NCBI RefSeq assembly: GCF_000702205.1
Contig: NZ_JNKW01000001.1
Span: 1-64,000 of the forward strand
DNA length: 64,000 nt
Direction of reading: 5' to 3'
Source of the DNA: Lachnospira multipara LB2003
Lineage (GTDB): Bacteria; Bacillota; Clostridia; Lachnospirales; Lachnospiraceae
This document shows, in pieces, positions 40,507 to 58,797 of this stretch (position 1 is the stretch's first letter; each line of letters begins with the position of its first letter). The notes below the pieces were generated by a model. That model made no database searches. It worked only from the letters and a program-made list of their open reading frames with translations, and had not been told where the DNA came from. The position numbers and the translations under genes are program-made.

Positions 40507-42237
40507 ATGATTGAAAGAATATGCCCTAAGTGCAGGGTTCCTATGACGGGAGATAAATGTATAAAGCCTAATTGTGGCCATGCTACCGAGATGTCATCAA
40601 CAATATATTGGTGCAATGAATGCAATATTCCTATTTTTGAAAATTCATGTCCCGTATGTGGCAATGAGGGGAAGTATATTGCAACAGATATTAGACCAGT
40701 GTTTCCGGAAGAAAACTGTTTGATATCAATTATTCTTAAGGATGATCCATTTGCTTTTCAAAAGGATTCTGTTTGGTATGGAAGCAATGCTTATATTATT
40801 AATGGTAAAAAGGTAAAACTTGCGGTTAGTAAAATTAATAAGCTTCATATTGATGAGATTAAGACATTCAAGCAGAAGTATGATGATGTTGCTGGTAGTA
40901 TTTTGTATGAATACTTTGATGTGTTCAAGGAAAGATTTATTGAAGCAAATAAAGACAGATATAACTTTATAACTGAAGAAGCTGTTAGCTTTGTTCAGAG
41001 TTATAAGGAACGATATGAAATCGAAGATATGATGGTATCATTCAGCGGGGGTAAGGATTCAACAGTTACATCACATATCGTTAATAGAGCATTGGGAACA
41101 AATAAGGTACTTCATGTTTTTGGAGATACGACATTAGAGTTTCCTTATACATTAGAGTATAAAAAACGCTTTAATAGAAATGAAGAATCTAGTGGTGTAA
41201 GGATTCTTACAGCAAAGAATCGTGAAAAGAACTTTGAAGAATTATGTGAAGTCGTTGGACCGCCTAGCCGTGTTATGAGGTGGTGTTGTACCGTATTTAA
41301 AACCGGTGCGATTCAAAAAACAATTGCGTCTGCATTTAAAGATAAGAATAACATCTTGAGTTTTCAAGGTATTAGACATAATGAATCAGCAAGCAGAAGC
41401 AAGTATGAAAGAGAAAGTGAGAGCCCAAAGATTTCGAAGCAGACAGTTGCTTCTCCAATTATAGATTGGATTGATTTTGATGTATGGCTCTATATTTTGA
41501 CTACAGGAATTGACTTTAATGAAGCATATCGACTTGGATGGACAAGAGTTGGATGCTGGTGTTGTCCAAATAATGGTGGATGGTCAGAGTTCTTATCAAA
41601 AGTTCATATGTATGATCAATATGTTCATTGGCATAATTTGCTTGTGGATTTTGCTAAACAAATTGGTAAGCCGGATCCAGAAGATTATGTTGATGAAGGT
41701 GGATGGAAAGCGAGACAAGGTGGTAATGGGTTAGCTGCAGCACAAACTTCTATCGTTTCATTTGAACCATGTGCTACAGATGAAAATGCTTTTAATTATG
41801 ATTTACAGCGCCCTATTACAGAAGAGTTATACGAATTATTTAAGCCGTTTGGATACATAAACAAGGAACTTGGAAATAAGCGTTTAGGAGAAGTCTATAT
41901 TTTAAATAAGGCTGGAAAGGTTGTGCTTGTTTTACAAGGAAGAGTCGGAAGTACAAGGCTTAAAGTTACTATAAAAGATATTCATATCGCAAAGGCAAAA
42001 ACACTTACTGCGGCAGAAGGAAAGATTCAGTGTCAACTTACAAAGTACCAGATGTGTTTGGGCTGTAAAGCGTGTGAGAGTGTATGTAAATATGATGCCA
42101 TTAGTGTTAAGGATGATGGCACAGGTAAAATCACTTATACAATTGATAGTGATAAGTGTAAGCGATGTACAGAATGTGTTGGACATTTTAATGCAGGATG
42201 TTACATGAGAAAAGTATTAGGAATAAAGAGGACATAA
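40507..42237 (+). CDS. sspD: SspD-like PAPS-reductase-family phosphorothioation protein
   Basis: The 576-residue ATP pyrophosphatase-type protein is expected to activate the DNA backbone for sulfur insertion. The N-terminus has cysteine pairs of zinc-ribbon type (CPKCRVPM, WCNECN, CPVCG). The PP-loop SFSGGKDST is at 178-186. The MRWCCTVFK and GCWCCPN cysteines follow in the PAPS reductase domain. The C-terminus has two ferredoxin-like clusters (CLGCKACESVC and CKRCTEC). Adjacency to DUF4007, a P-loop ATPase and a cysteine desulfurase points to the Ssp rather than the Dnd system. Confidence 0.87.
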   Translation: MIERICPKCRVPMTGDKCIKPNCGHATEMSSTIYWCNECNIPIFENSCPVCGNEGKYIATDIRPVFPEENCLISIILKDDPFAFQKDSVWYGSNAYIINGKKVKLAVSKINKLHIDEIKTFKQKYDDVAGSILYEYFDVFKERFIEANKDRYNFITEEAVSFVQSYKERYEIEDMMVSFSGGKDSTVTSHIVNRALGTNKVLHVFGDTTLEFPYTLEYKKRFNRNEESSGVRILTAKNREKNFEELCEVVGPPSRVMRWCCTVFKTGAIQKTIASAFKDKNNILSFQGIRHNESASRSKYERESESPKISKQTVASPIIDWIDFDVWLYILTTGIDFNEAYRLGWTRVGCWCCPNNGGWSEFLSKVHMYDQYVHWHNLLVDFAKQIGKPDPEDYVDEGGWKARQGGNGLAAAQTSIVSFEPCATDENAFNYDLQRPITEELYELFKPFGYINKELGNKRLGEVYILNKAGKVVLVLQGRVGSTRLKVTIKDIHIAKAKTLTAAEGKIQCQLTKYQMCLGCKACESVCKYDAISVKDDGTGKITYTIDSDKCKRCTECVGHFNAGCYMRKVLGIKRT

Positions 42238-42239
42238 AA

Positions 42240-43100
42240 ATGGCTAATGAAAATTCAATTAGGTTACAGGGTCATGAAAAGTTCGCTATTCGAGAAGGAT
42301 GGCTTGCTAAAGGACTAAACGAAGTTGAAAATCCTAAATATGACAATGTATTTCTGGAGAAAAATGCAGCAGAAATTTTCGGATTAGGTAACAACATGGT
42401 TAAGTCTTTGCGTTATTGGATGAGAGTATTCGGATTAACTAATGATAATGGTACGGAATTATCTACATTTGGTAAACTGGTGGCTGAGTATGATAGATAT
42501 ATTGAAGATACATTTTCTTTATGGATAATGCATTCTAAAATATCTAAAGATATTCATAATGCAACATCTTGGTATATGTATTTTAATCGATGTGACGCTG
42601 ATGATTTAGATAAATCACAGATTAAGAGCATTTTGTATAGAGAGATATCTAAATATGCTCCCCAAAAAAAGGTTTCAGAAAAGTCTTTGGAGAGTGATGT
42701 TGACGTATTGTTGAATATGTATAGCAAACGTAAGGAAAATGATGATCCAGAGGACAAGAGTATTTCTCCGTTTAGCCAACTTGCATTGGTAAAAAATTCT
42801 GGGGGCAAGTATTCAAAAGTACATCCTTCAGCCAAGCATTTTAGTGAATTGATAGTGTTATATGAAATAGCTTCTATGTTATGTGGTGAGGATAGTTTAT
42901 CAATTGATGCATTGATAAATGGAGAAAAAGGACTTCGCAGAATTTATAATCTTTCAAGTGTTGCTGTAAATGATTATTTAGATAAATTAGATGCTGCAGG
43001 ATATATAAAGGTGGATAGAACTGCTGGATTGGATGTTATTTATCCAATGAAAGAATTAGACTCTGATGCAATTTTGAAAGAGTATTATGAAAATAAATAA
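42240..43100 (+). CDS. sspB: SspB-like DUF4007 nickase of the phosphorothioation system
   Basis: The 286-residue protein starts at 42240 (MANENSIRLQGHEKF), two bases after the sspD stop. The open frame upstream overlaps sspD without a ribosome site. The pattern GHEKFAIREGWLAKGL and FGLGNNMVKSLRYWMRVFGL identifies DUF4007. In the characterised Ssp system the DUF4007 protein nicks one strand so that sulfur can be inserted. It is likely co-translated with SspD. Confidence 0.87.
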   Translation: MANENSIRLQGHEKFAIREGWLAKGLNEVENPKYDNVFLEKNAAEIFGLGNNMVKSLRYWMRVFGLTNDNGTELSTFGKLVAEYDRYIEDTFSLWIMHSKISKDIHNATSWYMYFNRCDADDLDKSQIKSILYREISKYAPQKKVSEKSLESDVDVLLNMYSKRKENDDPEDKSISPFSQLALVKNSGGKYSKVHPSAKHFSELIVLYEIASMLCGEDSLSIDALINGEKGLRRIYNLSSVAVNDYLDKLDAAGYIKVDRTAGLDVIYPMKELDSDAILKEYYENK

Positions 43101-43112
43101 AAGGGTGATGGG

Positions 43113-46100
43113 ATGAAAAAAATACAATCTCTTAAAGATATCATAGAATTTAATAGCAGTTTTAAGTCTGCTGTAAATTTATATTTGAGTTTAAATAAGC
43201 CTGAAAAGGTATTGGGCTATATTCCTACAAAATCATCTATATGTGTTATAGGTGATTATTTGGAGAGTATATTATGTAACAAAGAACAAGCAACTCTATT
43301 TGTTGGACCATATGGTAAAGGAAAGTCTCATCTTTTATTGGTTTTGACTGCTATTATTTCGCTGGATAGAACACCAGAGAATAAGAAGATAATCGATGAG
43401 TTAGTAAAAAAAATAAAAAAAGTAGATGAAGTTGGTAATGAAGTCGCTGATTTAATTATGACTATGTGGAACAAAGAAAAGTACTTGCCAGTTCTTATCT
43501 CAGGTTCTACAGGTGATTTGAATCAGGCGTTTTTATACGGTCTTAATGAAGCTATTAAAAGAGATAAGTCATTAGCGGGATTAGCACCAGAGACTTATTA
43601 CACAATAGCAATTGAGCGTATTGAAGATTGGAAGAATAATTACAAGGATACATATGCTATTTTTGAAAAGGAAGTAACGAAGTCAGGAATGATGATTAAT
43701 GACTTGCTTACTAATCTTAAGTTATGCTCAAATGAGGCACTTGATACATTCAAAGCTATTTATCCGAAGGTAACCGCTGGTAGCAAATTTAATCCAATGG
43801 CTGTTTCTGATGTTTTGCCTTTATATAAGGGGATTAGTGAAAAACTAGTAGAAGATCATAAATACAGTGGTATCTATATCATTTTTGATGAGTTTAGTAA
43901 ATTCATTGAGAGCCAGGATGGTTCAGCTGCTGGCTCTAATATGAAGTTAATACAGGATGTATGTGAGCTGGCAACAGAGTCGAAGAATGCACCTTTATTC
44001 TTCACTATGGTGGCACATAAGAGTATCAAAGAATATGGAAAGTATTTATCAATCGATACTATTAACTCATTTACCGGAATTGAAGGACGTATTGTAGAAA
44101 AGTATTTTGTTACTTCATCTAAGAATAATTATGAGCTGATTAGAAATGCAATTATAAAAAAGGATGATGATTTACAGAACATTGAGCACGTTCATAATTT
44201 CGTAGATAATGAGGCTTTAGATAAGTACTATCAACTTCCAGCATTTAAAAGCAATTTTCCAAGAAAAGATTTTGAAAATATTGTTTTAAAGGGCTGTTAT
44301 CCACTTAATCCGATTGCATCGTACTTATTGCTGAATATTAGTGAGAAAGTGGCTCAGAATGAAAGAACTTTGTTTACATTTATTTCTAATGATGAGCCAA
44401 ATAGTTTATTACGTTTTGTAGAGAATCATGATGAAAGCGACGGATGGAGTGCTGGCGCAGATTTGATTTACGATTATTTTGCACCATTGTTCAAAAAAGA
44501 TGTTACAAATGAGTTTATTCATAATATTTGGCTTAGCGCAGAATATGTACTAGAAAGATGCGAATCTGATAATCAGAAAAAGGTAGTAAAGGCACTTGCA
44601 ATTATTCTTATAGCAAATAAGGAAGATGAATTGCCAGCTACACGTACCTATATTCCACTTTGTGTTGATGTCCCTGGTTGTGCTCAGATTATTGATGATT
44701 TAGCAGCTAGCAATTTCATTTATAGAAAGAACGCAAACAACACTTATGCTTTTAAAACTAAAGCTGGTTCAGAATTAAAATCAGAGCTTAATAAGCAAAG
44801 AGAATTAAAGGGAGATAATGTTAATTATGCAAAAGCGTTATTAACAATTACAGGTAATTATTATATTGCGCCTAGAAAATATAATGCCCTTCATTGCATG
44901 ACAAGATATTTTGAAAATGAATATATGCTTGTAGAGGACTTTATGAATATCAATAGTGCCGATGCGCTATTGAGCGGAATGAAAGGTGATGGAAAGGTTA
45001 TCACTCTTTTTAGCTTTGAGACTGTTAAGCAAGAGCAAATTAAAAAGCATTTGGTAGACTTGGCAGATGATAGATTAATTGTTGTGTGTCCTAAAGAAAA
45101 ACTTAAGCTGCAGATAAAAAAGAGATTAAAGGACTATGAAATTGTTCAAGAGCTTAAGTCAAATCAGGTGTTCACAAATAATAATGCTGTCCTTAAGCGC
45201 GAATTACCATTGATGCTAGAAGATTTAACGGTAGAGATTGAAAATGTATTACAAGATATATATGATGATGAGTCAGGATCAAAGGTATTTAGATATAGTT
45301 TTGTGGGTGGAAAAACGGTTAAGGAAAGCTCTGTCGAAAGGGCAGTTAGTGATTGTTGTGATGAAGTTTATAGCGAAACACCAATTATCAATAATGAAAT
45401 GGTTAATAGACAATTTATCACTACAGGACAGACTAAGAAGGCGAGAGTAAACATTATTGATACGATTCTTCAACATAAATGTAATGAAGAATATGGCGAA
45501 GGCTTTAATCAGGAAGCTACAATATATCGTTCTTTATTTGTGAAGAATGAGTTATTAGCAGGAAACAATGATAGACTTCAGAAAATCTTGGATAGGATGA
45601 ATGCCTATATTGATACTTGCTGTGACAAGAAGGTTCCTTTTGGCAACTTAATAAATGAGTTAGTTGCTAAACCATATGGAATGAGACTTGGCGTAATTCC
45701 AATTTATTTTGCGCATGTTCTTGCTGAAAGACAGGAAGATATTATTATATATTTTGCTGATCAGGAAGTTCAGATTAGTGCAGATATTATTGTTAATATG
45801 TGCGAAAACGCAGAAGATTACGCTGTGTATGTTTCCAAGGAGGATATTGAGAAGGAGAAGTATTTAAACGAGTTAAATTCTGAGTTTAGGATTAGTGAAA
45901 ACAGAAATCTTTCTTCAAATCGAATTAAAGATATTGTGATTTGTATGCAAAGATGGTTTAGAGCTTTACCTCAGGCAACAAGAAATCTGGTAGATATCGA
46001 AAAGTACGAAGATAAGGAAACAGTTGTTGCACAAATGAAGGTGATCAGAAAAGCTATGCAAACGGTTGAGTTTAATCCGTTTGAGATGTTATTTGTCACA

Positions 46101-46703
46101 TTCCCTAACGAGTTTGGAACATCTTCACTGTTAGATACATTTGATATTATTGATAATCGAGTAGATGATTTTGAAGATTATTTTCATAAAATCGAGAATG
46201 CAATTGTAGCTGCTATCTTTAAGATATGGGGTACAAAGCCTGGAAAAGACAAACTCTATCATGATTTACGGGAGTGGTATGAGAAACAAAGTGTTTCTGC
46301 TAAGCAGGGATTATATGACGGAAGAATAACTAATTTTATGTCATGTATTGCAAACCTTGATTCATATAATAACGCACAGGTTGCGTTGAAAGTAGTAAAA
46401 GCTGTTACTAACGTATACGTTGAAAACTGGAACAGCGGTTCATTAGATGAATTTATAGAAGAATTATCTAGTCTAAAACAAGAGATTGAATCTATAAAAG
46501 ATGGTGATGCATCTGGTGAGTACACACTTACTTTCTTTGACAAGAATGGTGAGCAGAGGAGTAAAAACTATTCTTATGCAAGCGAAGGAACTGGTAGTGT
46601 ATTAAGGAATATTATTGAGGATACACTTGATGAATATGATGATTTGAGTGTGAATGATAGAGTTTCTATTTTACTAGAAATGATAGACAAGATTACTAGA
46701 TAG
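43113..46703 (+). CDS. sspC: SspC-like large P-loop ATPase
   Basis: The 1196-residue protein has Walker A GPYGKGKS at 65-72 and Walker B IYIIFDE at 254-260. The rest is a long helical region without other known motifs. It resembles the BrxC/PglY-like P-loop group but sits in an Ssp context, where the ATPase SspC provides energy for modification. A GGGTGATGGG stretch precedes the ATG, 12 bp after sspB. It is co-directional with a 12-bp gap to sspA. Confidence 0.83.
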   Translation: MKKIQSLKDIIEFNSSFKSAVNLYLSLNKPEKVLGYIPTKSSICVIGDYLESILCNKEQATLFVGPYGKGKSHLLLVLTAIISLDRTPENKKIIDELVKKIKKVDEVGNEVADLIMTMWNKEKYLPVLISGSTGDLNQAFLYGLNEAIKRDKSLAGLAPETYYTIAIERIEDWKNNYKDTYAIFEKEVTKSGMMINDLLTNLKLCSNEALDTFKAIYPKVTAGSKFNPMAVSDVLPLYKGISEKLVEDHKYSGIYIIFDEFSKFIESQDGSAAGSNMKLIQDVCELATESKNAPLFFTMVAHKSIKEYGKYLSIDTINSFTGIEGRIVEKYFVTSSKNNYELIRNAIIKKDDDLQNIEHVHNFVDNEALDKYYQLPAFKSNFPRKDFENIVLKGCYPLNPIASYLLLNISEKVAQNERTLFTFISNDEPNSLLRFVENHDESDGWSAGADLIYDYFAPLFKKDVTNEFIHNIWLSAEYVLERCESDNQKKVVKALAIILIANKEDELPATRTYIPLCVDVPGCAQIIDDLAASNFIYRKNANNTYAFKTKAGSELKSELNKQRELKGDNVNYAKALLTITGNYYIAPRKYNALHCMTRYFENEYMLVEDFMNINSADALLSGMKGDGKVITLFSFETVKQEQIKKHLVDLADDRLIVVCPKEKLKLQIKKRLKDYEIVQELKSNQVFTNNNAVLKRELPLMLEDLTVEIENVLQDIYDDESGSKVFRYSFVGGKTVKESSVERAVSDCCDEVYSETPIINNEMVNRQFITTGQTKKARVNIIDTILQHKCNEEYGEGFNQEATIYRSLFVKNELLAGNNDRLQKILDRMNAYIDTCCDKKVPFGNLINELVAKPYGMRLGVIPIYFAHVLAERQEDIIIYFADQEVQISADIIVNMCENAEDYAVYVSKEDIEKEKYLNELNSEFRISENRNLSSNRIKDIVICMQRWFRALPQATRNLVDIEKYEDKETVVAQMKVIRKAMQTVEFNPFEMLFVTFPNEFGTSSLLDTFDIIDNRVDDFEDYFHKIENAIVAAIFKIWGTKPGKDKLYHDLREWYEKQSVSAKQGLYDGRITNFMSCIANLDSYNNAQVALKVVKAVTNVYVENWNSGSLDEFIEELSSLKQEIESIKDGDASGEYTLTFFDKNGEQRSKNYSYASEGTGSVLRNIIEDTLDEYDDLSVNDRVSILLEMIDKITR

Positions 46704-46715
46704 AAAGGCGATGTA

Positions 46716-47864
46716 ATGATTTATTTAGATAACGCAGCAACTACATTTCCAAAGCCTAATTCCGTGTATGACGCAATGGATAGGGCAAATAGGGAATATG
46801 CAGTAAATGCTGGAAGAGGATCTTATAAGGCTGCAAGAGAAGCAAATCGAATAATTACCGAGACAAAACAGCAATTGCGTAATTTAGTTAGGGCTGATAT
46901 TTCCGCTGCAGTTGTCTTTGCTCCATCAATAACGATAGCACTTAACCAGATTATTAATGGATTAGATATGCGCAAGGGAGCAGTAGTTTATGTTTCACCG
47001 TATGAACATAATGCTGTAGCAAGAACAGTACACAAAATAGCTAACGAAAGAGACTTACTGGTAAAAGAATTACCTATAAATGAAGAAGATCTTTCAATTG
47101 ACTTAGAGAAGATGAAATATGAGTTTACGAAAGATCGACCAGAGTTTGTGTTTGCTACACACGTTAGTAATGTTACTGGATATGTTTTACCAGTTGAAGA
47201 AATCTTTTCAGAGGCAAAGAAATATGATGCTATTACAGTGCTTGATTCGGCACAATCGCTAGGATTGATTGATATATCAGTATCTTTAATAAAAGTCGAT
47301 ATTATTGCTTTTGCAGGTCACAAAACTTTATATGGCCCTTTAGGTATTGGTGGATTTATTAATGTTTCAGGCGTACCACTTTCTACTTTTATTACAGGTG
47401 GAACAGGAAGCGATTCATTAAATTTGGATATGCCTACTGGAGCAGAATCTCATTATGAAGCGGCTAGCAGCAATATAGTTGCAATATATGGATTAAACGC
47501 TGCATTAACAGATTTAAACCAAAATAGTAATTATAAAAAAGAGATGAAGCTTACAGAGTATTTATTGGAACGTCTTGGTACGATAGAAGGTGTTCGTGTT
47601 ATTGAATATCCTTCAAATAATTTACAAGTAGCGGTTGCCTCATTTATTGTTGATGGTTATAAATCAGAGGATGTAGGAATGATACTCGATGAGGACTTTG
47701 ATATTGCAGTTAGAACGGGATATCATTGTGCTCCGTATATACATAAGTATCTGAAGGACGAACCAACATTAGGTACAATACGCGTTGGATTAGGACAGTA
47801 TTCTACTAGAGATGATATAGATGAGCTAATAAAGGCTTTATGTGATATTATAGGGGGTAATTAA
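46716..47864 (+). CDS. sspA: Cysteine desulfurase of the phosphorothioation system
   Basis: The 382-residue class V aminotransferase begins MIYLDNAATTFPKP. The PLP lysine is Lys203 in GHKTLYGPLG, and the catalytic cysteine is Cys338 in RTGYHCAPYIH. It draws sulfur from L-cysteine and passes it to SspD. It overlaps the helicase gene by one base. Having its own desulfurase in the operon, rather than borrowing IscS, marks a self-contained module. Confidence 0.88.
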   Translation: MIYLDNAATTFPKPNSVYDAMDRANREYAVNAGRGSYKAAREANRIITETKQQLRNLVRADISAAVVFAPSITIALNQIINGLDMRKGAVVYVSPYEHNAVARTVHKIANERDLLVKELPINEEDLSIDLEKMKYEFTKDRPEFVFATHVSNVTGYVLPVEEIFSEAKKYDAITVLDSAQSLGLIDISVSLIKVDIIAFAGHKTLYGPLGIGGFINVSGVPLSTFITGGTGSDSLNLDMPTGAESHYEAASSNIVAIYGLNAALTDLNQNSNYKKEMKLTEYLLERLGTIEGVRVIEYPSNNLQVAVASFIVDGYKSEDVGMILDEDFDIAVRTGYHCAPYIHKYLKDEPTLGTIRVGLGQYSTRDDIDELIKALCDIIGGN

Positions 47865-49561
47865 TGGATCGATTAGAGTACTATATGTATAATTTCAATA
47901 TAATCGAGCTTAAGCAGTATCTTGGAACGGACCTAGCAGATTTGCTGGTGGAATGGCTACCAGAAGGTGAGCAGATTTATTCAGAAGAAAACCTGATTAA
48001 TATGATTCGTTCTGTTTATGGAAATAAGATTCTTGAAAATCCTTCTTTTAGAACTCGATTGTATAAGGCGTTTGAGCCAGAAAAGATTTTAGAATATAGA
48101 GTGCTTTTACCAGGACATGAAAATGATGATGTTGCTGTTGTTATTGAGGCAATGTCAAATTCAACATGGGGGAAGAATGCTCTATCGTATAAAGTGTTAG
48201 ATGACCTAGGTATTGATCATGCATATTTTGAAAAAGCCGAAGATACTAGAGCATCTATTGAAAGTATTGCAGCATATGATAGGTTTTTTGAACTATTAGA
48301 TTATCAATTTATCATAAAACAAAAGATTCTTACGTATGTGAATTCAGATAATGATTTACCTAAAATGCTCGTAAGAATGCCGACTGGTACAGGTAAAACA
48401 AAAACGGCAATGCATACGATAATTAATCAGTATGTATTTAAGCAAAATGGAGAAGGTTTGGTTGTATGGATTGCGCATACAAAGGAATTATTAGATCAAG
48501 CGTTTGATACATTTTGTAATGTCTGGCATCATATCGGTCAGGGAAATGTTAAAACATATAAGCTTTGGGATAGGTATGATGTTAATGAAGCAGAATTAGA
48601 TAATGGATTTATGTTTATTGGTATTCAAAAACTGACTTCATTAATGAATAATAATCCAGATTTGTTTTCAACTATTACAAATAAAGCACATATCGTTATT
48701 GTAGATGAAGCGCATCGTGCAAGTGCAAAGGAGACAAAGAAAGCTATAGATAGGTTGATGGCTTATGTAGGATTTTCAAAAGCATTGATTGGGTTAACTG
48801 CCACTCCAGGACGAACAGGAGATACAGAAACTGCATTATTTCAAGCAATGTTTGATAACAAAATTATAGATATTGATACCAGTATCCTTAATCAGTTAAA
48901 TCTTTCGAAGGTTGAGGCTGATAATACCACACCAGAGAAGGATATAATTAAATATTTTCAGAAAAGAGGTATTCTGTCGAAGTTAAAGCGAACACCTTTA
49001 CAATATGGAGATTTAACTAAAGACGAAATCTCTAAGCTTAAAGTGCATATGACTAGCAATGGATACAGAGATGTTACAGAAGCTTTTCTTAGGATTATTG
49101 CAATGAATAAAAAGAGAAATGCAGTTATTGTAAACAAATTAATTGATTTGAACAATATGCATAAACCTACCATTGTTTTTGCTTGTTCAGTAGAGCATGG
49201 AAAGATGCTATCGGCTGCTCTTACAATGCAGGGAATAAAAAATGGTCATGTATTTGGTGATATGGATCCTGTGGAACGTAGAAATTTTATTTCGAGATTT
49301 AAAGATAAAGATGATGATTTGAATATCCTTATAAACTACGAAGTCCTTACGACCGGATTTGATGCAACAAATATTCAGTGTGTATTTATCACGAGGCCAA
49401 CTAACTCAGTTGTCTTATATAGTCAGATGTTAGGTAGGGGGTTAAGAGGCCCTCAGATGGGTGGTAATGAATACTGCGAACTTATCGATATTGAAGATAA
49501 TTTGGAGCGTTTTACAAACGAATCTCAAGCATTTAATTATTTTAGTGAGTATTGGAATTAG
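47864..49561 (+). CDS. DEAH-box superfamily 2 helicase of the restriction module
   Basis: The 565-residue protein has Walker A MPTGTGKT at 172-179, DEAH at 281-284, GLTATPGR motif III, and QMLGRGLRGP motif VI near the end. The first 150 residues are a helical extension of unknown role. No nuclease motif is seen within it. The gene starts on the last base of sspA with AGGGGG upstream. With the next two genes it occupies the position of an SspFGH-type restriction set, which in other bacteria attacks unmodified DNA; the one-to-one match to SspF, G and H was not verified. Confidence 0.8.
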   Translation: MDRLEYYMYNFNIIELKQYLGTDLADLLVEWLPEGEQIYSEENLINMIRSVYGNKILENPSFRTRLYKAFEPEKILEYRVLLPGHENDDVAVVIEAMSNSTWGKNALSYKVLDDLGIDHAYFEKAEDTRASIESIAAYDRFFELLDYQFIIKQKILTYVNSDNDLPKMLVRMPTGTGKTKTAMHTIINQYVFKQNGEGLVVWIAHTKELLDQAFDTFCNVWHHIGQGNVKTYKLWDRYDVNEAELDNGFMFIGIQKLTSLMNNNPDLFSTITNKAHIVIVDEAHRASAKETKKAIDRLMAYVGFSKALIGLTATPGRTGDTETALFQAMFDNKIIDIDTSILNQLNLSKVEADNTTPEKDIIKYFQKRGILSKLKRTPLQYGDLTKDEISKLKVHMTSNGYRDVTEAFLRIIAMNKKRNAVIVNKLIDLNNMHKPTIVFACSVEHGKMLSAALTMQGIKNGHVFGDMDPVERRNFISRFKDKDDDLNILINYEVLTTGFDATNIQCVFITRPTNSVVLYSQMLGRGLRGPQMGGNEYCELIDIEDNLERFTNESQAFNYFSEYWN

Positions 49562-49572
49562 GAGGAATGAAA

Positions 49573-51390
49573 ATGGATACTGTAACTGCTTTTACATCTG
49601 CCGCTGAGGAGATGGATATTATTAATATTAGCGATTACGGCGATGCACTTAGAAATTCTGGCTATAAAGATATAGAAAGTGCGATGGCTGAGATTGTCGA
49701 TAATTCTATTCAGGCTGAAGCGAAAAATGTTCTTGTTATTATTAAAGATCGTGTTCCATCATATGGAAAACGAAGTCAGGTATATGAAGTAGCATTTTTA
49801 GATGATGGTACGGGTATGTCTCCTGAATGGGTTCAGGGATGTCTTAGATTTGGAAATGGTACGAGAAGAAGTGCAAAAGGAATGGGTAAATTTGGTGTAG
49901 GTTTACCACAATCATCAATGTATGCATGTCCTAGAGTAGAAGTTTATTCATGGCAGGGCGGAATAGATAATTGTTATAGTGCTTTTCTTGATATTGATAT
50001 GGTCTCTAAGGGAGAGCAATTAAAAATTAAACCTGCAGAAAAGAAAGAACTTCCAGAAGAGTACAAGAAATATTTAAGAGAAGGATTGCAGTTATGCGAG
50101 TCCACGTTTGATTTTTCTGAGCATGGGACTTTAGTGCTATGGAAGAATTGCGATAATGTTGTTCCTAGTACGGTTAATGCGCTTTTTAAGCGATTAGAAT
50201 TTTCTTTTGGAAAGAAATATAGGCATTTGATTTGTGATGGAAAATCAAATATTTATTTAATCCATGACACAAAGGATCAGTACAATGAGAAAGTAATACC
50301 TAATGATCCTTTATTTTTAATGCCTAATAATATTGTGCTTGGTAATCCTAATAATCCGGAACAATTACAAAAGAAGAAATTTGTAGAAGGTTCTGAGCCT
50401 ATTTTTGAACCATATGCGACGGAGTTCTGCCCTGATGGAGTAGTTCATCAGACTATTAAATACTGGGATAGAGAATCTAAAACAGCAAAAGAAGGAGAAG
50501 TAAAATTAACTTTTTCTATTGTAAAAAAGAAGTTTTATGATATGGATCATATGACAAATCCAAATCCTGGTAATACTAAAATGGGAGAATATGTAGGAAA
50601 GCTAGAGGGTATTTCTGTTGTCAGAGAAGGACGAGAAATTGATTTTGGTCAATTTGATTTTTATAGTGACAAAAATAGTCCATACCATAGATGGTGGGGA
50701 TGTGAAATAGCGTTTGATAGAGATCTTGATCAGGTGTTTAAAGTTGCAAATAACAAGCAACACGTTGAATTAATAAAGCTAGATGGTGCTGACTACGAAG
50801 AGGAAGAGTATAAGCCTGTTTGGCTTCAACTTGAAAAGATTATTACAGATAAGATTGCTGAAATGGCTAAGAGAAATAAAGCCTTACGTAAAGGCTCTAG
50901 AAGTAATACGTCAACAACAAGTCCGGCAGAGGAAACTGCAACAAAAGCAGAAGAAGGTTCACAAGTTCCAACTGAAAGTGGTGATATAAGAAATACAAAA
51001 ACTGACGAGGAATTAAAAAAAGCCGCTGAAGATATTCTGCATGAGAGAGGTAATGAAGCTCCAGCAGAAGAAGAAAAAGAACAAATATTATTTCAGAAAG
51101 TCGTAATTAGAGAAGAAGATGTATCGCAGTATACAAATAACCTTTTCACAATGAGTGTCGATACAGGAATATGTATATGTACGATTAATACTGGAAGTTT
51201 ATATTATGATAATTATGTGACAAATATGTCAGATGAAGCAAAATTAGCATTTGATCTTTTGTTAGCTTCATTTGTAAGAACTATAGATGAAGCAGCTCCA
51301 GAGAAGAGACCGACATATAAAAAACTTATGGACGAATGGAATTTTAAGTTAAACAAGTACTTATCAGAGTTTCTTGGCATTGATAATTGA
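49573..51390 (+). CDS. GHKL (Hsp90-like) ATPase of the restriction module
   Basis: The protein has 605 residues from the ATG at 49573, 7 bases after GGAGG; other in-frame ATGs upstream are too close to that site. The ATP pocket has the N-box MAEIVDNSIQAEA (38-50), FLDDGTGM (G1, 75-82) and GKFGVGLPQSS (G2, 105-115). The C-terminal part contains a charged low-complexity stretch rich in E, A and T (about 440-510) between two folded parts. It resembles MutL/MORC-type ATPases used in defence systems. It ends 8 bp before the PLD gene. Confidence 0.83.
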   Translation: MDTVTAFTSAAEEMDIINISDYGDALRNSGYKDIESAMAEIVDNSIQAEAKNVLVIIKDRVPSYGKRSQVYEVAFLDDGTGMSPEWVQGCLRFGNGTRRSAKGMGKFGVGLPQSSMYACPRVEVYSWQGGIDNCYSAFLDIDMVSKGEQLKIKPAEKKELPEEYKKYLREGLQLCESTFDFSEHGTLVLWKNCDNVVPSTVNALFKRLEFSFGKKYRHLICDGKSNIYLIHDTKDQYNEKVIPNDPLFLMPNNIVLGNPNNPEQLQKKKFVEGSEPIFEPYATEFCPDGVVHQTIKYWDRESKTAKEGEVKLTFSIVKKKFYDMDHMTNPNPGNTKMGEYVGKLEGISVVREGREIDFGQFDFYSDKNSPYHRWWGCEIAFDRDLDQVFKVANNKQHVELIKLDGADYEEEEYKPVWLQLEKIITDKIAEMAKRNKALRKGSRSNTSTTSPAEETATKAEEGSQVPTESGDIRNTKTDEELKKAAEDILHERGNEAPAEEEKEQILFQKVVIREEDVSQYTNNLFTMSVDTGICICTINTGSLYYDNYVTNMSDEAKLAFDLLLASFVRTIDEAAPEKRPTYKKLMDEWNFKLNKYLSEFLGIDN

Positions 51391-51398
51391 GGTGGCAT

Positions 51399-52301
51399 AT
51401 GGCGATTCTATTTTCAAACGAGATTATAAATGCTGTAATTGATGAACTTAAGAATGCGGAAAACTCCGTACAGATTATAACTGCATATTGCAAAAAGAAT
51501 ACTTTTGAAAAGTTGGACTCAGTTATTTCTAGTAGTGTAAATAACAGAAGACTTCTCGTTCGTTTTCGGCTTGATGATGTTCTAAAGGGAAGTACTGATT
51601 TTGAAATCTTAGAGTACGGAGTACAGCATGGATGGAATGTGTTCTTACGTTTTGATTTACATGCAAAAACCTATATTGTTGATAATAAGCGTGGATTAGT
51701 TGGTAGTGCAAATGCTACCAACTCTGGTTTAAATATTGGTAAAGCAGGCAATATGGAAATGGCAACATTCATTGATGTTGAACTTGAGGATATAGAAAAG
51801 ATTAATGGCTTGTTTGATGATGCAATTCCTGTAGATGGTGAATTGATTACTAAGATGAAACAGCAATTTGATTCAATTGAACCAGCAGAGAAACAGAAGA
51901 GCCATAGCTGGAATACAGAAATAACAAATCGCTTTAATCCAAGTGTTAACACACTATTTTCTTATGAGCTTCCGGAAGAGTTTAACTTTGTTGAAGGCGA
52001 GTATTTTTCATTCTTGGATTATACCTTTTCGGGAGATTTGAATGCCTTTAAAGAAGTATTCAGATGGAGTAATGCATATCTTTGGCTACTGAAGATTGTG
52101 AAAGAAAATGATGGTGAGATGTACTTTGGGGCAGTAACTGAAAAGCTACATAATGCGTTGGTTACAGATCCAAAACCATATAGAAGAGATGTTAAGCAGA
52201 TGCTGGCTAATCTTCTTGATTTAATAGAAAAGCTTGGAATGGAAGAGGTAGTAATTGATAGACCGAATCATTCGCAGAGAATAGCATTAAAAGAAAAATA
52301 A
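51399..52301 (+). CDS. Phospholipase D-like nuclease of the restriction module
   Basis: The protein has 300 residues from the ATG at 51399 (GAGGTGG upstream). A single HKD motif (His88, Lys90, Asp95 in HAKTYIVD, then GSANATNSG) indicates a nuclease that works as a dimer. The C-terminal third resembles a small winged helix (YFGAVTEKLHNAL...). It is likely the cutting subunit that acts with the upstream GHKL ATPase and helicase on DNA lacking phosphorothioate. A phosphatidyl role is unlikely in this setting. Confidence 0.83.
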   Translation: MAILFSNEIINAVIDELKNAENSVQIITAYCKKNTFEKLDSVISSSVNNRRLLVRFRLDDVLKGSTDFEILEYGVQHGWNVFLRFDLHAKTYIVDNKRGLVGSANATNSGLNIGKAGNMEMATFIDVELEDIEKINGLFDDAIPVDGELITKMKQQFDSIEPAEKQKSHSWNTEITNRFNPSVNTLFSYELPEEFNFVEGEYFSFLDYTFSGDLNAFKEVFRWSNAYLWLLKIVKENDGEMYFGAVTEKLHNALVTDPKPYRRDVKQMLANLLDLIEKLGMEEVVIDRPNHSQRIALKEK

Positions 52302-52336
52302 AAGGAGAAGTTGTTAAAAACAATTACTAGATTATT

Positions 52337-53518
52337 ATGGCAGATAAAAACAAAGTATATTATGGGGAGTACACATTACAGCATTGGATTGATTTGATAT
52401 TAACGGGAAATATAGTTCTTCCTCCTTATCAGCGATATTTTGTGTGGGATAAGGAACAATCGCAATCATTAGTTAATGCACTTGTAGAAAATCAATTTGT
52501 TCCACCAGTTACTATTGGTAGCTATGTCGAAAACAAAGAAAAACAGAATTTGATTCTTGATGGTCAACAAAGATTAACAAGTCTTTTGCTTCATTATCTA
52601 AGGGTTTTTCCGAATAGAGATGCATATAAAGTAAGTGCAAAAGATGTAGATTTAGCTAATGAAAATGATGATGAAAATGAAGAGGATATTGATTTTATAA
52701 ATTGGAATTTTAATAAGCTGCTAGATTTGATAAGAAAAAGTAAGTTACGTGATAGATCAGAGATACACGATGCAGCAATTGCTGAAGGCTATGAAGAGTT
52801 AAACACAACAGTAAGCTTATCGTCCTTTAATAAGAGTTATTTAGGTTTTTCATTTATTGTTCCTGGAACAGAAGATGATAGGGAGCAGCAGAAGTTTTAC
52901 TCTAAAGTTTTTAGAAGCATAAATATTGAAGGTAAGAAGCTTCTTCCTATCGAAAGTAGGGAAGCTTTATATTACCTAAACAAGGATTTGGTGGGGCTTT
53001 TTTCGCCGGAGTTTTCAAAAAAAATTACAGTTAATGATGGTAAAATGGATTTTGTGAGATATTTATCTATGCTTTCACAATATGCTAAAAATAATGGTCC
53101 AGATAAAGTGGCACGTGGATTTACAAAAATAATGGAGAGTTACTATGAGAATTTTATTTACGCAGCGGTAGACGGTGAGGAGACAAAAGAATTCAAGAAA
53201 CTTGCTGATATTATTCCAAATCTACAGTTTGAATCTAGAATGGAAAAGCTAAAGACAATAATTGAGGGGATGAATCTGCTAAAACCATATGATTCAATTA
53301 TTACTTTGGATTTATATATGTTTGGACTTGTTTATATTACGATTTTTGAAGATAAAAATATTGAATCCGAAAAATATGAAGATATGCGCAAAAAAATAGA
53401 AGATAAAAGTAATTTATTTAAGGGAGAACGATTACATCATAAAAATCCAAGTGCTTTGAAGCATTTAAAACTTCGCATCCAAGAATCAATAGATATTTGT
53501 GAGGAGTTTGCATCATGA
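52337..53518 (+). CDS. DUF262 (ParB/SspE N-domain-like) protein without nuclease domain
   Basis: The 393-residue protein has PPYQRYFVW (29-37) and the DGQQRLTSL motif (75-83), the hallmarks of DUF262, the NTPase or DNA-state sensor found in SspE and GmrSD. Those proteins carry a C-terminal DUF1524 HNH nuclease. Here the C-terminus is helical and lacks the HxxP and HNH signature; it ends GERLHHKNPSALKHL and a short helix. The stop overlaps the next start by four bases (ATGA), so it is coupled to the HEPN protein. A weak ribosome site suggests low expression. Confidence 0.82.
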   Translation: MADKNKVYYGEYTLQHWIDLILTGNIVLPPYQRYFVWDKEQSQSLVNALVENQFVPPVTIGSYVENKEKQNLILDGQQRLTSLLLHYLRVFPNRDAYKVSAKDVDLANENDDENEEDIDFINWNFNKLLDLIRKSKLRDRSEIHDAAIAEGYEELNTTVSLSSFNKSYLGFSFIVPGTEDDREQQKFYSKVFRSINIEGKKLLPIESREALYYLNKDLVGLFSPEFSKKITVNDGKMDFVRYLSMLSQYAKNNGPDKVARGFTKIMESYYENFIYAAVDGEETKEFKKLADIIPNLQFESRMEKLKTIIEGMNLLKPYDSIITLDLYMFGLVYITIFEDKNIESEKYEDMRKKIEDKSNLFKGERLHHKNPSALKHLKLRIQESIDICEEFAS

Positions 53519-54267
53519 GTAAGCATGAATCTTTTATTTTAACGCCTATCACGAGTGTTCTTGAGGAAATGATAGCAGCAACCTCTGGATTAGATTCAGG
53601 AATTGAGACATATCCGTTGTGGGATTATATTCTTCAGTCAACATTTACTAAGATGACAGGATTTCAAGAACAAAAAATGAAGTGCATAGATTGGGAATTA
53701 GCTACTAATGGATATGATTATCGAAGAAGCTTCCTTGAAGATGTAAAGAATAGAGGTACATATTCTACATATGAATCGAAGCAGACGGTTTATAATGCTT
53801 TATTAGGCGAAATAGCTCGCTATTCTCGAAAGAGTAAAAAAGATATTGTTGAGAAGAAGACAAAAAATGGCATTGATCCCCGAGGTAAAGTACAAAGTAT
53901 TTTAGATGATACAAATGTTAAATACTGTAAACAGCGTGAATATGCCTCCTTTACTAGGTGTAATAATCAGTTTCGTGATCAGTACTGGATTGTCCCTAAA
54001 GATTCAGATAAAACTGTAAAACTATTTGAATCCCGTTTATGTTCATATTACAAAGATGATTTATATCGTCATAGGAACAGAATTGCACATAATACTTTAT
54101 CATATCAGCAGAATTTACCTGAGCTTGAGAGCTTAAAAAATGAAACAGAGTATTCTAGGAATTATTTCTTTTGGTTTGCAATATTAGTTTTAATTGATGA
54201 AATATTCATGGACCTATATCGAGAATACCTGCACTATATAAAAATGAATAGTTATTTTGAAGAGTAA
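53515..54267 (+). CDS. HEPN-domain RNase-like protein coupled to DUF262
   Basis: The 250-residue, mostly helical protein contains RHRNRIAHN at 185-193. This is the R-X4-6-H motif that forms the RNase active site of HEPN effectors, followed by a hydrophobic helix (YFFWFAILVLIDEIFMDL). The first half is of unknown fold. It overlaps the DUF262 gene by four bases and ends the operon before a terminator. HEPN RNases in defence loci typically cut tRNA or mRNA to arrest the host. A link to phosphorothioate sensing through the coupled DUF262 is an inference. Confidence 0.72.
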   Translation: MSKHESFILTPITSVLEEMIAATSGLDSGIETYPLWDYILQSTFTKMTGFQEQKMKCIDWELATNGYDYRRSFLEDVKNRGTYSTYESKQTVYNALLGEIARYSRKSKKDIVEKKTKNGIDPRGKVQSILDDTNVKYCKQREYASFTRCNNQFRDQYWIVPKDSDKTVKLFESRLCSYYKDDLYRHRNRIAHNTLSYQQNLPELESLKNETEYSRNYFFWFAILVLIDEIFMDLYREYLHYIKMNSYFEE

Positions 54268-54284
54268 GAGAGTTTGATGTAATG

Positions 54285-54312
54285 CGCAGAGTCTTAGGTG
54301 GCTCTGCGTTTT
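54285..54312 (+). terminator. Intrinsic terminator of the phosphorothioation operon
   Basis: CGCAGAG and CTCTGCG form a 7-bp stem around a 10-base loop with a TTTT tail, 18 bp after the HEPN gene. About 160 bp of AT-rich sequence without a gene follows. Confidence 0.88.
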
Positions 54313-54473
54313 CTGTTGTAAGGAAAATAAGTAAATAGTATAATAATAACGTAGATGTTGTAAGGCATAATAGTTTAAATTGAAGACAATGTATCTGTTT
54401 ATTTATTAGTGTTTATGCAAGTGGGCATTAGTAAATAGTTTGAAGCAAAGAATTTAATTTAATCTTATTAGGT

Positions 54474-54506
54474 CTGGCAAGTCTTTTGGTGATATCAAAA
54501 TGCCAG
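54474..54506 (+). promoter_or_regulatory. Leader hairpin upstream of the RNase III paralog
   Basis: CTGGCA (54474-54479) pairs with TGCCAG (54501-54506), and TTTTG pairs with CAAAA inside it. It lies 26 bases before the ribosome site. RNase III genes in other bacteria are autoregulated by cleavage of a 5' leader stem, so this is a plausible self-cleavage target. Confidence 0.5.
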
Positions 54507-54547
54507 GCTATTATTATGCCTTCTTATAGAAAAAGGAGGTGTCTATT

Positions 54548-55582
54548 ATGGATAGAAACGATATTTCTGCTATCCAAAAAATCATTGGTTATGAATTCCA
54601 TAACAGTGACTTGCTACAGCAAGCATTTATTAGAAGGTCTTATTCTAAGGAAAAGGGCGGAGAAAATAACGAGGTCCTTGAGTTTATAGGAGACAAGGTT
54701 TTAGATTTGATTGTTGTAAAAATTCTCTCAGAAGAATTTGGCTCTATAACGAGCGGAGACTTTCATGAGTTTGCATCTGAATATCAAGAGAATAAGCTCA
54801 CTGAGATTAAGAAGCGTCTTGTTGAAAAGGATACACTTGCAAATTGTATTGATGACCTTGGATTAGCTGATTACCTAATTATGGGTGAGGGCGATCGAAA
54901 GAATCACGTTGAGAATTCTCCTTCTGTAATGGAGGACTTATTCGAGGCAATTCTTGGTGCTGTAGCTATTGATTCAAATTATGATTTAAAAGTATTACAG
55001 GATGTGATAGAACTAATGCTTAATCCTGAGGCTTTAATCTTTGACAATGAGATTAACTATATCCAAGAAGTACAAGATTGGAGTCTTCGAAGAACAGGAG
55101 AATTACCTGAAAGAGAATTCAAAGAAAATTACGGATTTTATACCATGAGTCCTGGTTTGTTAAATCCACATGCTCCAATGATGAATGAAAAATTTACTTG
55201 TTATGTTCAGGTGGATGGAGTAAAAAAGGCTGTTGGACATGGAACATCTAAAGTAAAAGCTCATGAAGAAGCTGCGAAAGCAATCTATGATTATTTAGAT
55301 GAAAATAATATGCTTTGTACGATTCAGGATGAAATTGATGAGCCATCACTGAATATGGCAATTAATCAACTTGAAACACTTGCACGTAGAGGTTATTTTT
55401 CTTTGCCAGAATATGTTGCTGAAGAACACCATGATGAGAATGGTAATCCCGTTTGGCATGTGGAGTGTTATATTGAAGAGGTTGAATATTACTTTGATGC
55501 AGAGTCTTCCTCAAAGAAGCAGGCAAAGAAGGAATCTGCATTGGATATGTTGAATTATGTATTAGAGAATTATGAGAAGTAG
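54548..55582 (+). CDS. RNase III paralog with two dsRNA-binding domains
   Basis: The protein has 344 residues from the ATG at 54548, 8 bases after AAAGGAGG; a GTG at 54539 is within that site. The RNase III domain has NEVLEFIGD with Glu42, Glu45 and Asp49, and EDLFEAILG with Asp130 and Glu133, so all catalytic acids are kept. Two C-terminal dsRBD-like parts follow at about 183-245 and 262-340, each with an alanine- and lysine-rich final helix. Housekeeping bacterial RNase III has about 230 residues and one dsRBD, and lies near acpP or smc. This is an accessory enzyme inside a defence island. Confidence 0.85.
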   Translation: MDRNDISAIQKIIGYEFHNSDLLQQAFIRRSYSKEKGGENNEVLEFIGDKVLDLIVVKILSEEFGSITSGDFHEFASEYQENKLTEIKKRLVEKDTLANCIDDLGLADYLIMGEGDRKNHVENSPSVMEDLFEAILGAVAIDSNYDLKVLQDVIELMLNPEALIFDNEINYIQEVQDWSLRRTGELPEREFKENYGFYTMSPGLLNPHAPMMNEKFTCYVQVDGVKKAVGHGTSKVKAHEEAAKAIYDYLDENNMLCTIQDEIDEPSLNMAINQLETLARRGYFSLPEYVAEEHHDENGNPVWHVECYIEEVEYYFDAESSSKKQAKKESALDMLNYVLENYEK

Positions 55583-55996: not shown

Positions 55997-56057
55997 TTTT
56001 TAGGCTAATAATATAGTTTCAAAATATTGCTAGTATAATCAAGTATTGGGAGGAAAC

Positions 56058-57689
56058 ATGGGAGATATAAAAAAACAAATAATAGATTTGCTAAATGAAA
56101 CACCAACACTGCCTGTTTTATTTGTTGGATCAGGTTTATCAAGGAGATATCTTAATCTTCCGGATTGGGAAGGATTGTTAAAGCATTTTGCTGAGTATTT
56201 GAGTAAGCCGTATTCTTATTATTACAATGAGGCAAAAAATGATGATTCATTGAAGGACGAAAGTTTATTGCTTCCAAGAGTAGCTGATTTTATAGAGAAA
56301 GAATTCAATAAAGTTTGGTTTGAAAATGAAGAGTTTGAGAGTCAAAGAGAAAAATATAAAGATGAAATTGATGCCAAGATTTCACCTTTTAAAATTGCAA
56401 TGGCTGACTATTTTAACACGAAGAGTGGCAAGACAACCTCATCATATTCAAAAGAAATAGAATCATTAAAAGAAATTACTGAGAAAAACATAAGTTGTAT
56501 TATTACAACAAACTACGACTTGTTTTTTGAAAAAATACTTGGGGACTCTTTTCAAAAATATGTTGGTCAAAGTGAATTAATGTTTTCTAAAACAATTGAG
56601 TTGGCAGAGTTATACAAAATTCATGGTTGTTGTACTAAACCGGAGTCTTTGGTAATTAATAAAAATGATTATCAAGAGTTTATGGATAAGCAAAAATACC
56701 TTAGTGCTAAACTCCTGACTATTTTTTTGGAGCATCCGATTATTTTTATTGGATATAGTCTTACGGATACAAATATTCGGAAAATACTAGAATCAATTAC
56801 AGATTGTCTTGAAGATGAGCAATTGCAGCAATTAAAAAATAGGCTGATTTTTATTGAGTGGAATAATACGGATGGTGACGACGAAATAAAAGAGCGTATA
56901 TTTAGCTTTGATAATCAGAAAAGTATAACAATGCAGAGCTTTTGCATTAAAGATTACGCTATATTGTATAATGCAATTCATTCAATTCATGCAAAATATG
57001 AAGTTCGTAACTTAAGACGAATTAAGCAGCAGTTGTATGAATTAGTTGCGACAAATAAACCTACTGAAAAACTATTCGTGGCAACAGAATTGGATAATGA
57101 TAATCCGGATATTGAGTTTGTTGTAGGAATTGGAGTGTATGGAAAATTTGGTGATACAGGGTATAGTGGATTAAATCTTAATCAGCTATATAGATATGTT
57201 TTAGGTCTTGGAAATACTAATTTAAAATCTGATCTGATTTTGAAGAAAACGATTCCAGATTTGTATAATGGAAGTTCAAAATTACCTGTTTGTAGAATGG
57301 TGTCACAGTGCAACGATAAGGATAATATTAGCGATAGAGCAAAGAAATCGTTAGTAAAATCAATTGATGATTTCAGGACTGAAGAAAACAGAAAAAAGAT
57401 TAAGAGAGACGGATATCGTCATTTAGATGTATCACTAATGTATTACTATGAGAACCATAAATTAAGTCAAGTACTTAGTTTAGTTCCGTTATTAGATCCA
57501 GATGAGATTGATGTTGATGATTTATATCGAGTTTTGGTTCGAGCAATAGATGATGATAGTACTCTGCTTGATGAAGAAAAAAAGGTAGATAATCCCAATA
57601 ATTCTGCTTTAAGAAAATGTATTAGCATATGGGATTGGTTAAAATATCATAAAGCAGCAGAAAAAAGGTTAAAAGAACTAGGAATATAG
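56058..57689 (+). CDS. SIR2-domain defence-type protein
   Basis: The protein has 543 residues from the ATG at 56058, preceded by GGGAGG; a TTG at 56046 overlaps that site. The SIR2 fold (about 15-290) shows the NAD loop LFVGSGLSRR (21-30), TNYD (151-154) and the catalytic-site His189 in YKIHG, then IFIGYSLTDTN. The C-terminal 250 residues match nothing that I recognise and are probably the sensor or oligomerisation part. Stand-alone SIR2 proteins in such islands deplete NAD on phage infection. TATAAT lies at 56034-56039. It is distinct from the SirTM enzyme at 36769. Confidence 0.82.
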   Translation: MGDIKKQIIDLLNETPTLPVLFVGSGLSRRYLNLPDWEGLLKHFAEYLSKPYSYYYNEAKNDDSLKDESLLLPRVADFIEKEFNKVWFENEEFESQREKYKDEIDAKISPFKIAMADYFNTKSGKTTSSYSKEIESLKEITEKNISCIITTNYDLFFEKILGDSFQKYVGQSELMFSKTIELAELYKIHGCCTKPESLVINKNDYQEFMDKQKYLSAKLLTIFLEHPIIFIGYSLTDTNIRKILESITDCLEDEQLQQLKNRLIFIEWNNTDGDDEIKERIFSFDNQKSITMQSFCIKDYAILYNAIHSIHAKYEVRNLRRIKQQLYELVATNKPTEKLFVATELDNDNPDIEFVVGIGVYGKFGDTGYSGLNLNQLYRYVLGLGNTNLKSDLILKKTIPDLYNGSSKLPVCRMVSQCNDKDNISDRAKKSLVKSIDDFRTEENRKKIKRDGYRHLDVSLMYYYENHKLSQVLSLVPLLDPDEIDVDDLYRVLVRAIDDDSTLLDEEKKVDNPNNSALRKCISIWDWLKYHKAAEKRLKELGI

Positions 57690-58768: not shown

Positions 58769-58797
58769 CAATTATTATTTTGGGAGGGAGAAAAATA

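Follow-up and report, generated by a model that had tools for sequence, protein, structure and literature searches.

In the SspABCD–SspE system, the DUF262 protein SspE is described as sensing phosphorothioate (PT)-containing DNA through Y30 and Q31 together with its C-terminal domain, as hydrolysing GTP and as nicking DNA; the C-terminal domain extends to residue 771 (PMC9646914). SspF, SspG and SspH are also given as restriction genes, SspH carrying an FtsK-like C-terminus (PMC8092258). DUF262 and HEPN are both given for PD-T4-2, an E. coli phage defence system (PMC10952713) whose deletion raises T4 plaquing (PMC9519451), and Menshen pairs DUF262 with a predicted OLD nuclease (PMC10952713). 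HEPN RNases encoded beside Dnd and BREX genes have been proposed as back-up suicide effectors (PMC10853773, PMC12839542), and operons combining HEPN with ParB-like genes had been pointed out in 2013 (PMC3710099). SF2 helicases occur with a GHKL ATPase and/or an HKD nuclease in MORC–helicase–nuclease operons (Iyer et al. 2008, PMC2292703) and in the HKD–helicase PbeA (PMC10853773).

We analysed a 64,000-nucleotide stretch of Lachnospira multipara LB2003, here called the window, in which an Ssp operon ends in a DUF262 gene and an overlapping second gene. The pair appears to be of a known defence type, a DUF262 sensor with a HEPN protein, here tied to a DNA-phosphorothioation operon. The literature searched (supplementary files excluded) yielded no description of a DUF262–HEPN pair in an Ssp operon.

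The Ssp operon and its terminal gene pair

Pfam and PADLOC delineate an operon of nine genes on one strand, beginning at 40507 with SspD, ending with the second protein of the pair and followed by a terminator-like hairpin. The first-pass annotation had likewise placed the pair at the end of a phosphorothioation operon. The features are:

40507..42237, + strand: SspD/BrxP-type PAPS reductase with a ferredoxin-like C-terminus, 576 aa (Pfam PAPS_reduct 2.1e-31, Fer4_7; PADLOC BrxP 4.8e-80, SspD 2.7e-13)
42198..43100, + strand: SspB, DUF4007, 300 aa (Pfam DUF4007 2.6e-79; PADLOC SspB 8.3e-53)
43113..46703, + strand: SspC/BrxC-like ATPase, 1196 aa (PADLOC SspC 8.1e-103)
46716..47864, + strand: cysteine desulfurase (SspA/IscS role), 382 aa (Pfam Aminotran_5 5.3e-72; PADLOC SspA 1.4e-40)
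47864..49561, + strand: SF2 helicase, RadD/type I and III R-like, 565 aa (Pfam ResIII 3.2e-22, Helicase_C; NCBIfam RadD 3.7e-32, below cut-off)
49552..51390, + strand: GHKL (MORC/MzaB-like) ATPase, 612 aa (Pfam HATPase_c_3 3.8e-19; NCBIfam MzaB 1.2e-14, below cut-off)
51387..52301, + strand: HKD/PLD-family nuclease-like protein, 304 aa (Pfam PLDc_2 6.5e-11, PLDc active-site motif; PADLOC DrmC 2.8e-08)
52337..53518, + strand: DUF262 (GmrSD_N) NTPase-like putative sensor without a DUF1524 match, 393 aa (Pfam GmrSD_N 9.7e-20; PADLOC NsnA 7e-11; PPYQR, DGQQR)
53515..54267, + strand: probable HEPN RNase partner, 250 aa (RNRIAH at 187–192, strict motif statistics, profile score above 120 shuffles)
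54284..54309, + strand: intrinsic-terminator-like hairpin closing the operon (10 pairs, 6 of them G–C, T tail)

The 3.4 kb scanned for terminators (51300–54700) held two such sites, against 1.0 expected from shuffles. The modification genes sspB, sspC and sspD stand together with a cysteine desulfurase gene (PADLOC, Pfam). The helicase, the GHKL ATPase and the HKD protein likely form a DNA-restriction module, which the first-pass annotation had passed over. An FtsK-like match, as in the C-terminus of SspH, was absent from the ten proteins tested with Pfam for SspFGH-type restriction. In place of SspE or, as far as the tests go, of SspFGH, this Ssp operon has a different restriction half.

A gap of 35 bases precedes the DUF262 gene. 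An ORF check confirmed that the pair spans 52337–54267 and that its two genes, both with ATG starts and on the same strand, are coupled by the four-base overlap reported earlier, which reads ATGA. This overlap is kept in all three cases known, the window and two relatives described below (L002 and L003). Differences between the window and L003 concentrate by codon position (78, 51 and 214 at positions 1, 2 and 3 of the DUF262 gene; 69, 48 and 137 in the second gene), and both ORFs therefore behave as genes.

Directly behind the operon lies a second RNase III-like gene (54539–55582, 347 aa) with RNase III domain and dsRNA-binding matches; another, stronger RNase III match is found elsewhere in the source genome (G000:C1:321889-322284). 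Further downstream are a SIR2_2 domain protein (56046–57689) and a KAP-family NTPase (58780–60174), which gives the region the look of a defence island.

Relatives of the DUF262 protein inside and outside Ssp operons

Pfam places GmrSD_N/DUF262 over residues 22–212 of the DUF262 protein (9.7e-20), with PPYQR at 29–33 and DGQQR at 75–79. The first-pass description of a protein that keeps both motifs and has no HNH part stands: GmrSD_C/DUF1524 gave no Pfam match at E ≤ 1, where the same library finds GmrSD_C in the GmrSD protein of a related operon (L029). The sensitivity of this test is limited, in that two long DUF262 proteins (L027, L028) likewise give no GmrSD_C match at E ≤ 0.001. We rejected the stretch HHKNP (367–371) as an HNH remnant, since its second histidine varies (H, Y or V) and only 22 residues follow. 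PADLOC ranks NsnA first (7e-11, 40 bits, residues 10–357), with HEC-05 close behind (35.3 bits) and then PD-T4-2_A (24.7 bits, 2.6e-06), scarcely above SspE (22.7 bits, 6.7e-06, 44 residues); judged by these scores, kinship with NsnA is distant. An AlphaFold2 model built from only three alignment rows reached a mean pLDDT of 42.8, and a PDB sequence search returned 3iug_A (0.82) and a DUF262 protein, 7p9k_A (1.0).

Scanning genome contigs with the second protein revealed two relatives, one in an Anaerovibrio MAG (L002, 77% identical) and one in a Saccharofermentans MAG (L003, about 62%). The genome of L003 carries all nine operon genes in the same order (L082). Identity to the window is 80% for SspD, 57% for SspB, about 62% for SspC, 60% for the desulfurase, about 46% for the helicase, about 40% for the GHKL ATPase and 73% for the PLD protein; within the pair it is 72% for the DUF262 protein and about 61% for the second protein. 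The L002 contig starts inside the DUF262 gene; an SspD of that genome (45% identical), possibly belonging with the pair, lies on another contig, which ends in SspC. Close homologues of the pair sit in Ssp operons in both cases with readable upstream DNA (the window and L003/L082).

Pairs of the broader class were sought through PF18735, which has 13 occurrences spread over 12 of 110 family genomes; 12 of these places lie above the Pfam cut-off. PF18737 (MAE_28990) occurred in five of the 110 genomes, all already found by PF18735, and added none. The upstream genes of ten of the 13 places, all but L071, L075 and L076, were typed with Pfam: six encode GmrSD_N proteins of 371–424 aa without a GmrSD_C match (L064–L069), and the other four gave AAA twice, a ParA-like match and no match. 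The partial upstream gene at L071 gave no Pfam match. None of the window's Ssp genes was matched at the 13 loci (5–9 kb each), so that within these stretches all six DUF262–HEPN pairs found in this way lack an Ssp gene related to those of the window. Gene order is DUF262 then HEPN in all six, as in the window. This order therefore recurs without Ssp genes. The DUF262 proteins of the six pairs match NsnA at 5.7e-62 to 9.3e-80 (208–267 bits, against 40 bits for the window protein) and PD-T4-2_A at 2.3e-31 to 1.3e-45 (PADLOC). Their HEPN partners gave no PADLOC match at the five loci tested (L064–L068), a result that lends no support to a relationship with the second PD-T4-2 protein. At L065 (569–4753), the one locus whose further upstream genes were examined, the pair directly follows a type II methyltransferase and a restriction enzyme; such a pair can therefore sit behind other defence genes or attach to a DNA-modification system.

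Over the DUF262 domain, the profile of the window protein aligned to the HEPN-paired DUF262 group with a probability of 98.1, an E-value of 1.1e-13 and a score of 101.7, and to the two long Ssp-linked DUF262 proteins (L027, L028) with a score of 63.5. For the latter two PADLOC reports PDC-M55C, HEC-05 and, in L028, NsnA at 1e-10; because it does not call them SspE they are no yardstick for SspE, and the one direct comparison with SspE is that by PADLOC. The C-terminal half of the window protein matches neither group, scoring 13.8 against the HEPN-paired proteins, under the shuffles (up to 20.1), and 18.4, a value without a shuffle baseline, against the long Ssp-linked proteins.

DUF4007, the SspB domain, occurs in 20 of 329 genomes of the same family, the source genome included. 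Of the 19 further regions, 13 are readable behind the modification genes (L027–L031, L034–L036, L038, L039, L041, L043, L044); L032, L033, L037, L040 and L045 end at contig ends, and at L042 no other Ssp gene was recognised. The second protein had no match at blastp E ≤ 1e-4 among ORFs of at least 80 aa in the 19 regions, the contig-cut ones being uninformative. The restriction halves found behind modification genes include long DUF262 proteins (L027, L028), a GmrSD (L029) and PbeA-type HKD–helicases (L034, L036, L041, L043; four of four tested); such diversity in one family suggests frequent swapping. The position of PbeA behind Ssp rather than Dnd genes is possibly of interest in itself. L035 carries the window's helicase–GHKL–PLD trio without the DUF262–HEPN pair, and the pair therefore looks like an addition. 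The helicase and GHKL ATPase of L003 are closer to those of L035 (58%, 60%) than to those of the window (about 47%, 41%); its SspC, desulfurase and PLD protein are closer to the window than to L035. On these identities, the helicase–GHKL cassette (window 47864–51390; L082 11451–15001; L035 8178–11707) seems to pass from one Ssp operon to another without the genes around it.

These comparisons bear on the central proposal of the first-pass annotation, that the pair is a split, RNA-targeting analogue of SspE. The DUF262 protein would read phosphorothioate as SspE does, and NTP hydrolysis stimulated by PT would activate the HEPN RNase, directing the attack at RNA in infected cells that carry PT. 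In keeping with this proposal, both homologues with readable upstream DNA share an operon with SspBCD; conservation of the pair is close to that of SspC and PLD (72% and 62% versus 63% and 73%), so it would have travelled with them; and YQR, described as PT-sensing in SspE (PMC9646914), is present in the window (Y31–Q32–R33) and L003. However, [YF]QR and D-G-x-Q-R are motifs of DUF262 proteins in general and occur in all six non-Ssp pairs, two of which have YQR, and the two long DUF262 proteins behind Ssp genes of the same family have FQR; PPYQR and DGQQR are therefore uninformative on phosphorothioate sensing. NsnA ranks ahead of SspE, both being distant, and the operon already has a likely DNA-restriction module. 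PT binding by SspE is moreover described as also involving its C-terminal domain (PMC9646914), which is missing in the window protein. The neighbourhood comparison proposed with the first-pass annotation likewise goes against it, with Ssp genes beside the close homologues only (two of two) and beside none of the six broad-class pairs. We consider the split analogue unlikely. A two-layer form of it, in which helicase, GHKL ATPase and HKD protein would act on unmarked DNA while a PT-responsive DUF262 protein switched on a separate HEPN RNase as the RNA-targeting counterpart of SspE, with sulfur marks gating RNA cleavage and dormancy, strikes us as distinctly improbable.

Distribution and character of the second protein

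Among 250 family genomes the second protein was found in the source genome only, and the other genome of the genus in the set (n = 1) is without it. A profile search of 391 class genomes returned the source genome and one match at 2.6e-4, which has two stops inside and was dismissed as chance. Of 188 genomes of L003's order, L003's own was the only one with the protein, and the DUF262 protein at E ≤ 1e-10 occurred in one of 299 phylum genomes, again the source genome. Three scans of viral contigs gave no relative, and a tblastn search of phages with the DUF262 protein gave three records with about 20% of the query covered. On plasmids the DUF262 protein was without a match; the HEPN-like protein had a single 47-residue match, in Fusobacterium vincentii. 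That stretch (L005 14001–14141, 62% identical) lies outside any ORF of at least 80 aa and is perhaps a gene remnant.

Such a patchy distribution, with the source genome alone among 250 family genomes, would suit a toxin–antitoxin-like addiction module, in which a HEPN toxin and a DUF262 antitoxin prevent loss of the Ssp operon without sensing phage; two overlapping genes for a probable RNase and a larger partner would suit it as well. The would-be antitoxin, however, belongs to the DUF262 proteins, which are familiar from phage defence systems (PMC10952713), and in each of the two readable cases the pair closes an operon of nine genes. We judge an addiction role to be quite unlikely.

The first-pass annotation had assigned the partner to HEPN from an R-X4-6-H motif at 185–193. 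The motif is present in the last third of the protein as RNRIAH (R187 N188 R189 I190 A191 H192), within one or two residues of that position. As HEPN evidence the bare R-x4-6-H pattern was rejected, being too common: 124 of the 289 background ORFs contain it, at 0.49 occurrences per 250 aa, and this part of the argument falls. Of the same 289 ORFs only 2 contain the strict form R[NHD]xx[AVI]H, versus 12 of 13 PF18735 proteins, a contrast that is somewhat flattering in that the form was chosen, after the window motif was known, on the basis of known HEPN sequences and of PF18735 proteins, and that the PF18735 model may itself reward it. Only one of 47 window ORFs, the second protein, has the strict form. 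The background consists of ORFs of at least 100 aa, not confirmed genes, and excludes the known HEPN or operon loci (L001–L003, L006, L020, L077, L078, L081, L082, L084, L046–L076); with the HEPN-selected loci kept, the count is 34 of 470.

An hhalign comparison of the profile of the three homologues with that of six HEPN proteins (five following a GmrSD_N gene, plus L071, whose partial upstream gene is untyped) aligned the two at the motif with a score of 24.5 and a probability of only 4.1%. The score exceeds all 120 shuffles, the best of which reached 19.4 and 20.9 (60 shuffles of either side). Conservation of the motif says little, because the alignment of the three homologues, the only ones available, is invariant at 141 of its 251 columns. 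The second protein has no HEPN family match in Pfam, PADLOC, NCBIfam or PHROGs, and searching Pfam with the three homologues at E ≤ 10 gave none either, the best match being Nmad2 (0.0035, one homologue). AlphaFold2, again from only three alignment rows, returned mostly helices at a mean pLDDT of 35.5. A PDB sequence search listed almost only antibody chains (best 6tej_C, 0.0043), which we take as chance. The rare strict motif and the profile alignment point to a protein that is probably HEPN. That it instead assists the DUF262 protein or the operon in a non-HEPN role, for example as a DNA-binding or scaffold protein, and carries the motif by coincidence would agree with the missing library matches, the low hhalign probability, the lack of a usable fold and the uninformative motif conservation, but is improbable given that the strict motif is rare, that it lies in the last third of a protein whose gene immediately follows a DUF262 gene, like those of the six known pairs, and that the profile score lies above every shuffle.

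A possible back-up layer and its comparison with known systems

We tentatively favour, at somewhat less than even probability, the reading that the pair is a DUF262–HEPN cassette of the general PD-T4-2 kind and serves as the abortive back-up layer of an unusual Ssp system. We prefer it because HEPN RNases near Dnd and BREX genes have been proposed as suicide effectors and because DUF262 and HEPN are both given for PD-T4-2. In its favour are also the missing DUF1524 match, the first rank of NsnA, the identical gene order of the six non-Ssp pairs, the strict motif with its profile score, and the conservation of the operon in L082; against it weigh the distance from NsnA, the unmatched C-terminal half of the DUF262 protein, the low hhalign probability and the absence of PADLOC matches among the HEPN partners tested. 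The helicase, GHKL ATPase and HKD protein would probably make the main attack on unmarked DNA. The DUF262 protein may act as an NTP-binding sensor that restrains its co-translated HEPN partner. Failed restriction, or contact of the sensor with DNA or a product of the phage, would free this partner, which would then cut RNA, perhaps tRNA, and growth would stop. If the partner is an RNase, no earlier description of such a pair within an Ssp operon would exist in the literature searched (supplementary files excluded), and the locus would allow a direct test of whether recognition of sulfur marks is general to DUF262 or peculiar to SspE.

The locus has in common with SspABCD–SspE its modification genes (SspD, SspB, SspC, cysteine desulfurase) and, downstream of them, a DUF262 protein, which like SspE has an N-terminal DUF262 with DGQQR. 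In contrast to SspE, which has an HNH/DUF1524 nicking domain in the same chain, the window protein (393 aa) gave no match to such a domain, and the operon contains a separate HEPN-like protein plus the helicase–GHKL–HKD module. BREX type 4 comprises BrxP, DUF4007, BrxC, PglZ and BrxL. The window's PAPS reductase is nearest to BrxP (4.8e-80), and BrxC/SspC and DUF4007 are held in common, whereas PglZ and BrxL were unmatched in the ten window proteins tested (40507–55582). Unlike the MORC–helicase–nuclease and PbeA systems, the window has three separate genes inside an Ssp operon, a combination outside those described in the accessible parts of these reports.

NsnA, the best PADLOC model of the window DUF262 protein, is a component of Menshen. 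The likeness extends over residues 10–357 (7e-11) but is distant (40 bits), and the operon proteins tested gave no match to an OLD nuclease (Pfam, PADLOC). PD-T4-2 is a stand-alone system and is not known as part of an Ssp operon. Although the window's HEPN-like protein is without a PADLOC match, the locus resembles PD-T4-2 in the weak match of its DUF262 protein to PD-T4-2_A (2.6e-06) and, given the HEPN assignment, in the order of a DUF262 gene followed by a HEPN gene.
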